Position numbers and translations under genes: made by a program
Notes under the pieces: generated by a model
The model's input: the letters and a program-made list of their open reading frames with translations, nothing else
Databases searched by the model: none
Told to the model about the DNA's origin: nothing
Origin: Streptomyces sp. 840.1
GTDB taxonomy: Bacteria > Actinomycetota > Actinomycetes > Streptomycetales > Streptomycetaceae
Direction: 5' to 3'
Length of the DNA: 64,000 nt
NCBI RefSeq assembly: GCF_003751445.1
Contig: NZ_RJUU01000001.1
Location: 873,001-937,000, forward strand
Shown: positions 7,345 through 42,984 of the stretch, piece after piece
Position numbering within the stretch: the first letter of the stretch is position 1
Layout: each line of letters opens with the position of its first letter

Positions 7345-7863
7345 TCAGGACGTCTTGAGCGCCGCCGCCATCTCCGCCAGCCGCTCCGGCGAGGCGGAGC
7401 CGGTGACGACCGTGGTCGCCCCCTTGCCCTCGCGCACGAGGGCGTCGTACTTCGGGCCCTCCCAGTGCTGCCACGTCTCACCGGCGACCTGCTGGGTGCG
7501 GCCGGTGTTCTTCGCGTCCTGGCTGACAGCGGTGATGTACTTCTTCGCCGGCGACGTGGACTGCTCCACCGCGACGTACCCGCCGTCCGGATCGAGGAAG
7601 CCCAGGTGCCAGCTGTTGCCGGCCTCGCGCTCGTAGCTGACGGAGGTCGGCTTCCACTTCTGCGCCAGACCGCTGGGCGCCACCACCGGATACGGAGCCG
7701 CGCGCCGCGCCGTCAGGAGCTCGACCCGGTAGTCGACCGCCTTGACGGGATCGGCCTTGTCGTCGTGCGGGACGAAGATGTAGACGACCCCCGCCACGGC
7801 GGCGATCACCGCCAACGACAGGAACATGTCCCGCACTGTCTGCTTGCCTCGCTTGCTTGCCAC
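7345..7863 (-). CDS. DUF4245 membrane-anchored protein
   Basis: Actinobacterial protein of unknown function, 172 residues. A short basic N-terminus ([14 protein letters not shown]) leads into one membrane segment (about residues 14-30, [17 protein letters not shown]). The extracellular domain contains [21 protein letters not shown] and [18 protein letters not shown], typical of DUF4245. It lies divergent from glpX, the usual actinobacterial arrangement. Confidence 0.85.
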
Positions 7864-16586: not shown

Positions 16587-16752
16587 CTAGGGTCTTTCGT
16601 TTGGATCAGGCCGGATCAGGGAGCGGTGTCCGGTGCGTGCGGCTGCAAGGCGGAGGAGGGAGTAAATGCGGAGCATTGGCGACCGACGACAACGCCGCAG
16701 ATGTGCGTGCCGGACACCGCGAGCCCGGCATGATCCAAACGAGAGGCCCTAG
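16587..16752 (+). mobile_element. MITE-like element, copy A (158 bp plus CTAG target duplications)
   Basis: A non-coding element bounded by CTAG at 16587-16590 and 16749-16752. The ends are terminal inverted repeats: GGTCTTTCGTTTGGATCA on the left and, inverted, GGCCTCTCGTTTGGATCA on the right (16 of 18 match). The interior has further self-complementary segments (CGGTGTCCGG/CCGGACACCG and AATGC-GGA-GCATT), so the whole element can fold as a long hairpin. CTAG duplication and GG-starting repeats resemble the YTAR-targeting IS5 group, so mobilisation by such a transposase is inferred. The reverse complement of copy B (42819-42984) is the same length and differs at only two positions. Confidence 0.85.
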
Positions 16753-18275
16753 GCGAAGCGCTGGCTCGCGCCTCCGTCGCAGGGCTGGAGCCTCAGCGGG
16801 TCGTGGGCGCCCGCCAGGGTCGCGCACAGGCCCGTGGCGGCGGCCGGGCGCAGGGTGCCCGACTGCCGCTCGAAGCGCTGGTTGGCCGCGCCGGAGCAGT
16901 TGTAGAGGATGAGGGCGGCGCCCGCCCTGTAGTCGGCGCCCGGTACGTCCACGCAGCGGTCGTGGCTCAGTTCCGTACGGACGGTCTTGGTGCTGGCGTC
17001 GTACCACCAGTCCTGGTTGCGGCCGCCGTGGCACTCCCAGCCCGTCACGCCGGTGTTGTTGCGGGTGACCGAGGCGGGGGCGTCCAGGCAGGTGCCGGTG
17101 GCGCCGTTCTTCAGCGGCTTGAAGACGTCGTCCCAGGCGGCCGCCTGCAGCACGGGCTTTCCGGTGCTCGCCGGGTCGGCGCAGCTCGCCTCGCGCAGGC
17201 CCGAGTTGTAGATCTGGGTCAGGCAGGAGGCGAAGGCGCCGTGGCCGGCCGCGTTCGGGTGGAAGGACTGCCGCAGGGAGTTGGAGTCCGGCGGGAAGTG
17301 CGAGAGGTCGATGAAGAGGCCGCGGGCCCAGGTGGACTCGCTGCACACCTCGTGGCCGTGGAAGAGCCGGGAGTTGTCCAGGTAGACGGCGCCGGTGTCG
17401 GCGGCGGCCTTGCGCATGCCGCGCTCGAAGGCGGGGACGGCGGTGTTGCGGCCCCAGGCGGCGTCGGAGTCGTATCCGGCGCAGCCGCCGGGAAGCTTGC
17501 CGGGGAAGTTCGGGTTGTCGTAGAAGTCGGGGCCGATCGGGCTCGGGTAGCCCATGACGACGAGCTTGTAGTCGCTGTTGGCGTATCCGGCGTCCGACAT
17601 GACGGTGCGCAGGTCGCCGACGGTCTTCTCGACCTTGGGGACGAGTCCATCGACGCGGGCCTGCCAGCCGCCCGCGTACTTGGGCTCGCAGGTGCCCTGG
17701 AGGAGGACCCAGCGCTCGACGCAGTCCGTCATGACCGGACCGAACTGGAGGTCGTCATTGGCACCCGCCACCAGCACGATCATCTTGATGCGGGTGTTGC
17801 GCGCCTTGATGGCGAGGTTGTCGCTCTGCACCAGCTCGTCGGCGTACTGCTTCGAACCGCCGATGACGATGTTCCCGGTGTACGCGCCGGAGCAGGAGAC
17901 GTTGTACGTGACGTCGGCCGGGATGCCGGTGCGGTGGATGGCGGAGTCGGGCGAGCGGTGGCACCAGTTGTCGGGGCCGTTGGTGCCCGCCTCGTACGTG
18001 CCGACGCCCTCGCCCGAGATCTCGCTGTCGCCGAGCGAGATCAGCCCGGTCTTGCGGTCGGCGAGCGGGCGCTCGGCGGGGTCGCCGTACAGCTGGGTGG
18101 CCTCGGCGGCGCGGACGGCCTCCAGTCCGGGCGGCAGTGCGGTGGATGAGGTAGTGCTGGTACCGGACTGTGCCGCGGCCGCCGGTCCGGCGGCCGCGGT
18201 CATCCCGCCCAGTGCGGCCGCCGTGGCGGCGACGGCCGCGACGGTACAACGGAGTCTGAACCTTGTGCGCCTCAT
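16749..18275 (-). CDS. Secreted SGNH/GDSL hydrolase with C-terminal ricin-B lectin domain
   Basis: 508 residues. A Sec-type signal peptide (about residues 1-36, MRRTRFRLRCTVAAVAATAA then GPAAAAQS) precedes an SGNH esterase domain with SLGDSEISGEG (block I serine), SCSGAYTGNI, VLVAGANDDLQFG (Asn block) and SFHPNAAGHGAFA (catalytic His). The C-terminal part (about 385-508) is a ricin-type beta-trefoil, with repeats TGTCLDAPAS, HDRCVDVPGAD and TGLCATLAG and ending in QRFA. It probably acts on extracellular esters with carbohydrate binding. The TAG stop is part of the CTAG at the MITE boundary, so the insertion lies exactly at the stop without visible truncation. Confidence 0.9.
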   Translation of the reverse strand: MRRTRFRLRCTVAAVAATAAALGGMTAAAGPAAAAQSGTSTTSSTALPPGLEAVRAAEATQLYGDPAERPLADRKTGLISLGDSEISGEGVGTYEAGTNGPDNWCHRSPDSAIHRTGIPADVTYNVSCSGAYTGNIVIGGSKQYADELVQSDNLAIKARNTRIKMIVLVAGANDDLQFGPVMTDCVERWVLLQGTCEPKYAGGWQARVDGLVPKVEKTVGDLRTVMSDAGYANSDYKLVVMGYPSPIGPDFYDNPNFPGKLPGGCAGYDSDAAWGRNTAVPAFERGMRKAAADTGAVYLDNSRLFHGHEVCSESTWARGLFIDLSHFPPDSNSLRQSFHPNAAGHGAFASCLTQIYNSGLREASCADPASTGKPVLQAAAWDDVFKPLKNGATGTCLDAPASVTRNNTGVTGWECHGGRNQDWWYDASTKTVRTELSHDRCVDVPGADYRAGAALILYNCSGAANQRFERQSGTLRPAAATGLCATLAGAHDPLRLQPCDGGASQRFA

Positions 18276-18366: not shown

Positions 18367-18548
18367 AGGACCGCCCGGGAAGTGGTGGGCGGAAGAAGGA
18401 GCGAGGCTGGGTGCGTGCAGCTGCAGGGCGGAGGATTGAGGCAACGCAATGGGGTCTCCCCTGCTCGAGCGAAGCCGAGAGCTCGGGGAAGTTGTTGATT
18501 GACGACAACGCTGCAGATGACGCCGCCCACCACTTCCCGGGCGGCCCT
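18367..18548 (+). mobile_element. MITE-like element, copy C (divergent), in the fumC leader
   Basis: A 26-bp terminal inverted repeat (CCGCCCGGGAAGTGGTGGGC core; 18367-18392 and 18523-18548, one mismatch) encloses a core homologous to copies A and B. The left block is GTGCGTGC-GCTGCA-GGCGGAGGA (2 mismatches in 24) and the right block GACGACAACGC-GCAGATG (1 in 18). Compared with copy A it has different terminal repeats and an extra hairpin of about 40 bp (18453-18488, CCCCTGCTCGAGCGAAGC region). It ends 3 bases before the fumC Shine-Dalgarno. Confidence 0.75.
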
Positions 18549-18562
18549 ATGGAGGTTGAACG

Positions 18563-19978
18563 ATGACGGACGAGGGAACGACCGCAGCCGGTACCGAGGA
18601 CTACCGCGTCGAGCACGACTCGATGGGCGAGGTGAGGGTGCCCGCCGACGCGAAGTGGCGGGCCCAGACGCAGCGGGCGGTGGAGAACTTCCCGATCTCC
18701 GGGCAGCGCCTGGAGCGGGCCCACATCGAGGCCCTCGCCCGCATCAAGGGCGCGGCCGCCAAGGTGAACGCCGAGCTGGAGGTGCTCGACCCGGAGATCG
18801 CGCGGGCCATCCAGGACGCCGCGGCCGAGGTCGCCGGGGGCGGCTGGGACGCGCACTTCCCGATCGACGTCTTCCAGACCGGCTCCGGCACCTCGTCGAA
18901 CATGAACACCAACGAGGTGCTGGCCACCCTCGCCACCGAGCGCCTGGGCCGCGAGGTCCACCCCAACGACCACGTCAACGCCTCGCAGTCCTCCAACGAC
19001 GTCTTTCCGTCCTCCATCCACATCGCCGCCACGGGCGCGGTGACGGGCGGGCTGATCCCCGCTCTGGACCATCTCGCGGCAGCCCTGGAGCGCAAGTCCG
19101 TCGAGTTCGCGGCGGTCGTGAAGTCGGGCCGCACCCATCTGATGGACGCGACCCCGGTGACCCTGGGCCAGGAGTTCGGCGGGTACGCCGCGCAGATCCG
19201 CTACGGCATCGAGCGGCTGTACGCCTCGCTCCCCCGCCTCGCGGAACTGCCGCTGGGCGGCACGGCCGTCGGCACCGGCATCAACACCCCGCCCGGCTTC
19301 TCGGCCGCCGTGATCGCGGAGGTCGCCCGGGTCACCGGACTGCCGCTCACCGAGGCCCGCGACCACTTCGAGGCGCAGGGCGCGCGGGACGGCCTGGTGG
19401 AGGCCTCCGGCCAGCTCCGTACGATCGCGGTCTCCCTCACCAAGATCTCCAACGACCTGCGCTGGATGGCCTCGGGGCCGCGCACCGGACTGGCCGAGAT
19501 CAGCCTCCCCGACCTGCAGCCGGGCTCGTCGATCATGCCGGGGAAGGTCAACCCGGTCATCCCCGAGGCCGTGCTGATGGTCGCCGCCCAGGTGACGGGG
19601 AACGACGCGACGGTCGCCGCCGCCGGGGCCGCGGGCAACTTCGAGCTGAACGTGATGCTCCCGGTCATCGCGAAGAACCTGCTGGAGTCCGTACGCCTGC
19701 TCACCAACGTCTCCCGGCTGCTCGCCGACCGCACGGTCGACGGGATCACCGCGAACGTGGAGCGGGCCAGGGAGTACGCGGAGTCCTCGCCGTCCGTGGT
19801 CACCCCGCTGAACAAGTACATCGGCTACGAGGAGGCGGCGAAGGTCGCCAAGAAGTCCCTGGCCGAGCGGAGGACCATCCGCGAGGTGGTGCTGGACTCC
19901 GGTTACGTCGAGCGCGGGGACCTCACCGTGGAGCAGCTGGACGAGGCGCTGGACGTGCTGCGGATGACCCGCCCGTGA
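18563..19978 (+). CDS. fumC: Fumarate hydratase, class II
   Basis: Iron-independent, oxygen-stable fumarase of the aspartase/fumarase superfamily, 471 residues. Conserved motifs are [54 protein letters not shown] and the signature [16 protein letters not shown]. The SD GGAGG (18551-18555) lies 7 bases before ATG 18563 and immediately follows MITE copy C. The native promoter must therefore be inside or upstream of that element. Confidence 0.96.
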
Positions 19979-42818: not shown

Positions 42819-42984
42819 CTAGGGCCTCTCGTTTGGATCATGCCGGGCTCACGGTGTCCGGCACGCACATCTGCGGCGTTGTCGTCGGTCGCCAATGCTC
42901 CGCATTGACTCCCTCCTCCGCCTTGCAGCCGCACGCACCGGACACCGCTCCCTGATCCGGCCTGATCCAAACGAAAGACCCTAG
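42819..42984 (-). mobile_element. MITE-like element, copy B (inverted relative to copy A)
   Basis: Bounded by CTAG at 42819-42822 and 42981-42984, with the same 158-bp interior and terminal inverted repeats as copy A (16587-16752) in the opposite orientation. The reverse complement differs from copy A at only two positions (one near the central AATGC hairpin, one in the right arm), indicating recent transposition or gene conversion. It lies between the PIG-V-like gene and a gene remnant. Confidence 0.88.

Follow-up and report, generated by a model that had tools for sequence, protein, structure and literature searches.

Two inverted 166-bp palindromes in the 64,000-nucleotide stretch of Streptomyces DNA analysed here (the window) are recently transposed copies of a non-autonomous, MITE-like element, and the centre of this element, 81 nt long, is a structured module with invariant internal loops, tandem G.A pairs and strong covariation. 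By its features the element is a MITE, and its novelty lies in a conserved core not bound to a single transposase: the core occurs in Actinomycetota and in Bacillota, within palindromic elements that have unrelated arms and are often present in many copies. On balance we favour the explanation that the element is mobilized by an IS5-type transposase and that its core is folded on one strand only, likely as an RNA that aids persistence of the element.

Two inverted copies and their family in the genome

Copies A and B (Table 1) are the sole long near-identical repeat pair found in the window (170 nt, 98%), the remaining repeat pairs having 71-77% identity over 41-51 nt. Copy A aligns without gaps to the reverse complement of copy B over 166 bp, with two differences at alignment columns 98 and 154, and CTAG occurs at all four ends (16587-16590, 16749-16752, 42819-42822 and 42981-42984). 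This confirms what a preliminary description of this DNA had noticed, namely two copies of 166 bp in opposite orientation, each flanked by CTAG. The terminal inverted repeats that it reported are indeed present, although imperfect, with 21 of 24 inverted matches over 24 bp, and the single long hairpin that it expected of each copy agrees with the predicted fold of copy A, which amounts to -101.3 kcal/mol on the + strand (shuffled mean -60.1, z -11.1) and to -73.4 kcal/mol on the - strand (z -5.0). At 166 bp, with terminal inverted repeats, copy A is too short to contain a transposase. A 27-aa ORF with an SD-like sequence that ends at the terminal TAG was considered and rejected, its ATG and frame not being kept, as judged by eye, in other variants.

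Table 1. Coordinates in the window of copies A and B, their parts and a third hairpin with the same core.
Feature	Position	Strand	Remarks
Copy A, non-autonomous palindromic element, CTAG to CTAG	16587..16752	+	166 bp
Left terminal inverted repeat of A, GGTCTTTCGTTTGGATCAGGCCGG	16591..16614	+	first 21 nt from TA match the IS5-family end of L150 at 20/21
Conserved structured core of A	16632..16712	+	model R1, 88.2 bits
Right terminal inverted repeat of A	16725..16748	+	19/21 to the end of L150
Right CTAG of A	16749..16752	.	read on the - strand, TAG stop of the GDSL-lipase gene
Third, older core-bearing hairpin	18371..18544	+	perfect 22-bp arms CCGCCCGGGAAGTGGTGGGCGG at 18371-18392 and 18523-18544
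Copy B, intergenic by codon-usage gene calls	42819..42984	-	166 bp, orientation opposite to A
Conserved structured core of B	42859..42939	-	model R1, 93.7 bits

The near identity of the pair stands, but the pair is not an isolated one. The 8.84-Mb host genome harbors nine copies at 97-100% identity, of which A and B are two, and one diverged copy of 203 bp. Also, ten short derivatives consisting of ends only were found in this genome (seven of 67 bp and one each of 68, 84 and 59 bp), eight of which have one common junction, at different loci, where the left end is joined to the right arm. That pieces made up of ends alone share a junction at several loci indicates that the ends suffice for spread and, given that these core-less derivatives are dispersed too, that transposition does not require the core in cis. 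The exact end TAGGGNCTNTCGTTTGGATCA was found in 54 of 199 genomes of the genus and matches were obtained in 41 plasmid records, all of Streptomyces, while the phage records yielded none.

At least six relatives have DNA spanning site A, and copy A is absent from all six that were fetched among the relatives listed. In the window, the right CTAG of copy A ends a GDSL-lipase gene with a ricin-type lectin domain (16749-18275, - strand); in the six relatives the GDSL-lipase/lectin gene ends exactly at the position of A, with its stop codon in the same place. The recent mobility proposed earlier, for which empty sites in relatives had been suggested as a check, is thus borne out by the nine copies of 97-100% identity and by site A, empty in six of the six relatives examined. 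For site B no empty site was seen among the relatives listed and for site L002 none that was informative, while at site L005 one diverged relative (77%) is without the element. In L005 itself a 166-bp copy stands directly after a MITE-like end (ACCTTCAAAACACGCC-CTAG) at 1475-1500, an arrangement that is perhaps a nested insertion and as such might permit exchange of ends.

Being two inverted copies that are 98% complementary over 170 nt, A and B had also been seen as a possible substrate for inversion of the intervening 26 kb. However, the two flanks of A adjoin each other in each of the six relatives examined, so that no A/B inversion separates this genome from them, and 166 bp is short for homologous recombination. 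We give this idea next to no credit.

Target site and stop codons

CTAG sites are uncommon in this genome and frequently overlap TAG stop codons; insertion at such a site would therefore rebuild the stop and leave the target gene intact. By approximate counts, genes having been called with our own codon-usage script, the boundary CTAG is used as a TAG stop in 10 of 16 scorable insertions, compared to 12 of 62 CTAG sites in a 464-kb genome sample that includes the four CTAG sites of A and B (Fisher p 0.0014); without the window in the background the figures are 10/16 and 9/49 (p 0.0015). Four of the 20 elements of this genome (L008, L022, L025 and L026), whose left 4-mer as cut is not CTAG, were dropped from the comparison, and with them the count is 12/20.

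The preliminary description regarded the CTAG flanks as the target duplication. The flanks are certainly there: CTAG/CTAG boundaries were found in 22 of 54 elements in one set and in 33 of 50 TA-bounded core-bearing elements in another, which fits duplication of either TA or CTAG, the two being indistinguishable at such boundaries because the element could start with G and end with C. The other boundaries are mostly asymmetric (CTAG/CTAA, TTAG/CTAG, ATAG/CTAG and many CTAG/CTGG or CTAG/CCAG), and the same non-CTAG YTAR four-mer on both sides, as expected under a 4-bp duplication, occurs in 0 of the 50 TA-bounded core-bearing elements. One identical non-CTAG pair, GTAC/GTAC in L011, lies inside the arms and is not an element boundary; L008 has CTGG at both boundaries. 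At L019 the occupied site reads CTAG...CTAA and the empty site in a relative (G182) reads CTAA. Part of this asymmetry is due to mutation of one CTAG after insertion. Judging from the non-CTAG boundaries and from the empty site of L019, the target duplication is more likely a 2-bp TA than CTAG. In another relative (G171) palindromic inserts occupy the L019 site, among them L215, itself core-bearing with other ends, and in the same genome a MITE-like left end, a putative insertion, begins at the CTAG stop of the L009 gene.

The transposase partner of copies A and B

The ends of copy A match those of L150, an 897-bp IS5-family IS of a related genome that is broken in frame, with NF033580 in two pieces (Table 1). 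On this likeness the ends of A and B would be of IS5 type and an IS5-type transposase is the most likely mover, which would most likely have cut and pasted the element into CTAG sites, duplicating TA. The IS5-type partner that had been suggested therefore has its matching ends in a broken element of a related genome, whereas the own genome gave no IS with such ends. Nor was an intact one found in the own genome, the IS loci of related genomes and the plasmid records examined. Plasmid records matched by short end queries had no transposase-labelled gene among the 60 of 84 and 44 of 44 listed, several of which are unannotated. Two IS5-family elements (NF033580) of the own genome are bounded by CTAG and have ends that are related to, but different from, those of A and B. 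L125 and L126 (C3 of the own genome), which are IS5-family with CTAG ends and about 1.5 and 1.3 kb between ends, each carry extra sequence besides the transposase reading frames. IS630 was rejected as a partner of A and B: PF13358 is not found in the own genome, and 30 PF13358 loci of 11 relatives are without matching ends.

A conserved, covarying core

Further Streptomyces elements have only the middle in common with A and B, inside different arms. An alignment (A2) of 41 cores, picked from 72 after removal of near copies, doubtful hits and variants whose apical stem is different, has 84 columns and the consensus GC-AA-GGCG-GAG-GA-NN-GA-G-(apical stem)-C-GA-NN-GA-C-GACAA-CGC-N-GC. Standard pairs fill 92.1% of the pair cells in these 41 cores, compared to 70.9% when shuffled. 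The covariation score is 0.576, as against 0.192 in shuffled alignments (0 of 500 shuffles) and at most 0.163 in slid controls, over which the structure is favoured by having been drawn on the same sequences, and changes on both sides were observed in 21 of 28 core pairs. Covariation beyond that of shuffled and slid controls is what is expected of a structured RNA. Of the 41 cores, 36 to 41 retain each of the four tandem G.A positions, and one tandem G.A pair changes jointly, from GA/GA to GC/AA, in 4 of 41. The 2-bp helix between the G.A pairs is GG/CC (21), AG/CT (2) or AA/TT (2), the rest of its variants pairing partly or not at all (e.g. GG/GT, AT/TT and TT/TT); 12 of 41 are unpaired at one of the two positions, which counts against the favoured explanation. 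In L076, L183, L239, L263, L286 and other Streptomyces elements, the tandem-G.A helix is replaced by a longer continuous stem, with AAGGCGGAG...CGACAACGC kept.

The core resembles the structured RNAs of Rfam 15 in its covarying helices, invariant internal loops and tandem G.A pairs, but no family of that release matches it at or above its gathering score. At E up to 10, copy A retrieved microRNA-type long-hairpin models and SorX, all below their gathering scores, and L301 retrieved nothing. The internal stems had been taken at first sight as a sign of more than passive spread, a suspicion that the covarying, conserved core supports.

Distribution of the core and its end types

A pattern for the shared middle of A and B, run over GTDB contigs, recovered at least 120 stretches, many of which are chance hits in coding DNA and which do not constitute a census. 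Clear relatives among the matches listed come from Kitasatospora, Nocardioides, Gordonia, Frankia, Pseudonocardia, Frigoribacterium, Lachnospiraceae, Clostridiaceae and Peptococcaceae, with one weaker match (36.2 bits), also among those listed, from Azonexus. Model R1 (E <=1e-4) detected the core in 20 of 296 genomes of the phylum; for Lachnospiraceae, the family of G215, the figure is 16 of 120. In 20 genomes chosen for holding a core, the number of cores per genome ranges from 1 (Azonexus) to 110 (Frankia).

TA-bounded ends that match at 13/16 or better were found in 50 of 96 core-bearing elements, where TA alone is no proof, since the arms are palindromic throughout and some other dinucleotides score as well or better. 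The length from TA to TA is 163-166 bp in elements of Streptomyces, Kitasatospora, Actinacidiphila, Gordonia, Lachnospiraceae and Clostridiaceae, and 138 to 225 bp in other core-bearing elements. Within Streptomyces, the core occurs both with IS5-type and with IS630-type ends: L277 ends like the IS5 elements of the own genome (18/19) and L239 like the PF13358 (IS630-type) locus L108 (27/28). The Lachnospiraceae elements have their first bases, TAGTGTRCTG, in common with an IS630-family IS of a Blautia genome, a weaker match. None of the seven IS loci tested (L108, L115, L116, L125, L126, L150 and L373) has a core inside. In one genome two cores lie head to head, about 116 bp apart (G536:C77:86292-86488), and this arrangement has a second place in the same genome, in C14.

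The window itself contains a third, older core-bearing hairpin (Table 1), with its core at 18410-18528 (model R1, 45.6 bits, E 5e-11). Its arms are unrelated to those of A and B and lack CTAG, its apical stem has extra sequence, and a fumarase-C gene at 18563 follows directly downstream. Three loci of the own genome (L011, L012 and L013, at C1:415189, 2272352 and 3386432) resemble it in kind, having the same core and arms that differ between loci and pair near perfectly, which could reflect selection or quasi-palindrome repair. One more stretch of the window (7722-7773, - strand) gives a weak match to model R1 (21 bits, E 0.0012) and is possibly a degenerate core or a chance match.

Strand asymmetry of the core and inner arms

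Mismatches in the arms are not distributed evenly between the strands. Within 27 nt of the core, on the strand reading GGCGGAG, 72 non-redundant elements have 219 G.T and 23 A.C mismatches, counts that include a few chance entries, four of the 72 (L295, L326, L332 and L340) failing model R1. In the outer arms, farther from the core, the figures are 131 and 86, and the aligned helices of A2 have 151 G.U and 11 A.C cells. By group, G.T and A.C in the inner arms stand at 14:7 for the nine Firmicutes, at 40:2 for 16 other taxa, among them the four elements that fail model R1, and at 165:14 for the 47 Streptomycetaceae. The excess is partly due to shared ancestry, relatedness inflating the counts. 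Since a symmetric DNA element gives no cause for an excess of G.T, the asymmetry points to selection on one folded strand, which appears to act on the core and the inner arms. Inferred from these sequences, the folded strand is most likely an RNA hairpin.

Around 76 high-GC loci, neighboring genes are convergent in 22 cases, both sense in 11, both antisense in 19 and divergent in 7, with 5 elements inside a predicted gene and 12 in other arrangements. The orientation of the elements to their neighbors, 11 sense against 19 antisense, gives a p of 0.20. As elements occur in both orientations, read-through from host genes does not always make the same strand and does not by itself explain the bias.

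The next choice after an RNA hairpin, and its main rival, is a hairpin of single-stranded DNA, with an enzyme of host or phage recognising the core on one strand after extrusion, as in attC or REP; the asymmetry would then reflect the DNA form. G.T is better tolerated than A.C in DNA hairpins too, and both the lack of orientation bias to host genes and the recurrence of 163-166 bp between TAs in Streptomyces, Kitasatospora, Gordonia and Lachnospiraceae (although others measure 138 to 225 bp) are consistent with such a form. We nevertheless hold it to be unlikely, given that the ends match DDE-type ISs of two families and that end-only derivatives spread too; also, we know of no enzyme linked to the core.

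More unlikely still is that A and B are an ordinary IS5-type MITE, with a centre that is functionless filler of a deleted element, shared through common ancestry or lateral transfer. Palindromic MITEs abound in bacteria, the IS5 ends match and core-less derivatives exist, all of which would be in line with this. It is at odds, however, with the invariant loops of the core and its compensatory changes across phyla while the surrounding arms are unrelated, and with the presence of IS5-type and IS630-type ends on the same core within Streptomyces; quasi-palindrome repair could yield the symmetry of the arms, but not a wobble bias on one strand or invariant unpaired bases.

Convergent neighbors exceed divergent ones (22 versus 7 among 76 loci) and the predicted fold is very stable, as would befit a domesticated cis-acting signal at the 3' end of host genes, either a bidirectional terminator or an mRNA stabiliser. 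The emptiness of site A in six relatives, the multi-copy and patchy occurrence across genomes and the 5 of 76 elements inside predicted genes make this role very improbable.

Relation to known elements and significance

Several known families of small repeats share part of these properties. IS5/IS630-type MITEs such as RUP, Correia and Nezha are likewise short and non-coding, have terminal inverted repeats that match DDE elements and a TA or CTAG type of target, and are multi-copy with near-identical recent copies. The MITEs known to us are tied to one parent IS, and the A/B family differs from them in having one structured centre with ends of different IS families in different phyla. REP/REPIN sequences with RAYT transposases are also palindromic hairpins of conserved structure at gene ends, but the A/B family is unlike them in its TA-bounded long inverted repeats that match IS5 and IS630 ends. 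Mycobacterial MIRUs, compared here by description, are small elements at stop codons with target duplication as well; their target differs from that of the A/B family, and to our knowledge no such core has been described for them.

In IS1272, palindromes are involved in transposition as they are in the A/B family; according to the part of the published account considered here, this is a stem-loop-replacing transposition in which the target stem-loop is replaced without target duplication (PMC5678879). The A/B family is unlike IS1272 so described, as the empty site of A is an uninterrupted gene end and TA is present on both sides of the element. Literature searches by sequence strings and by topic, with most subscription journals outside their coverage, found nothing on the element or its core.

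The middle of the element does not have the look of leftover transposase DNA. It is rather a folded module of 81 nt, conserved among Actinomycetota and Bacillota or exchanged between them, that is carried within IS5-type, IS630-type and other ends. We think it most likely that the module helps the element to persist, possibly by forming an RNA, stable or bound by protein, through which insertions at the ends of genes do no harm or which aids the element. We see an even chance that it represents an undescribed mobile structured hairpin, probably an RNA, that has spread through both phyla by swapping terminal repeats, so that CTAG-targeting transposases of IS5 type, IS630 type and others carry one and the same core. 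In that case the hairpin would be selfish or a helper, and modular with regard to its transposase.

The preference for CTAG suggests a form of harmlessness in GC-rich genomes, in which the element rebuilds a stop codon at its landing site. The usual view of MITEs is that they are deletion remnants of a single IS, and a covarying core that lasts across phyla while the ends change suggests that it is the interior that is selected. It can now be tested whether functional structures, of RNA or DNA, are encoded by small mobile elements, and by what route such a passenger changes its transposase.
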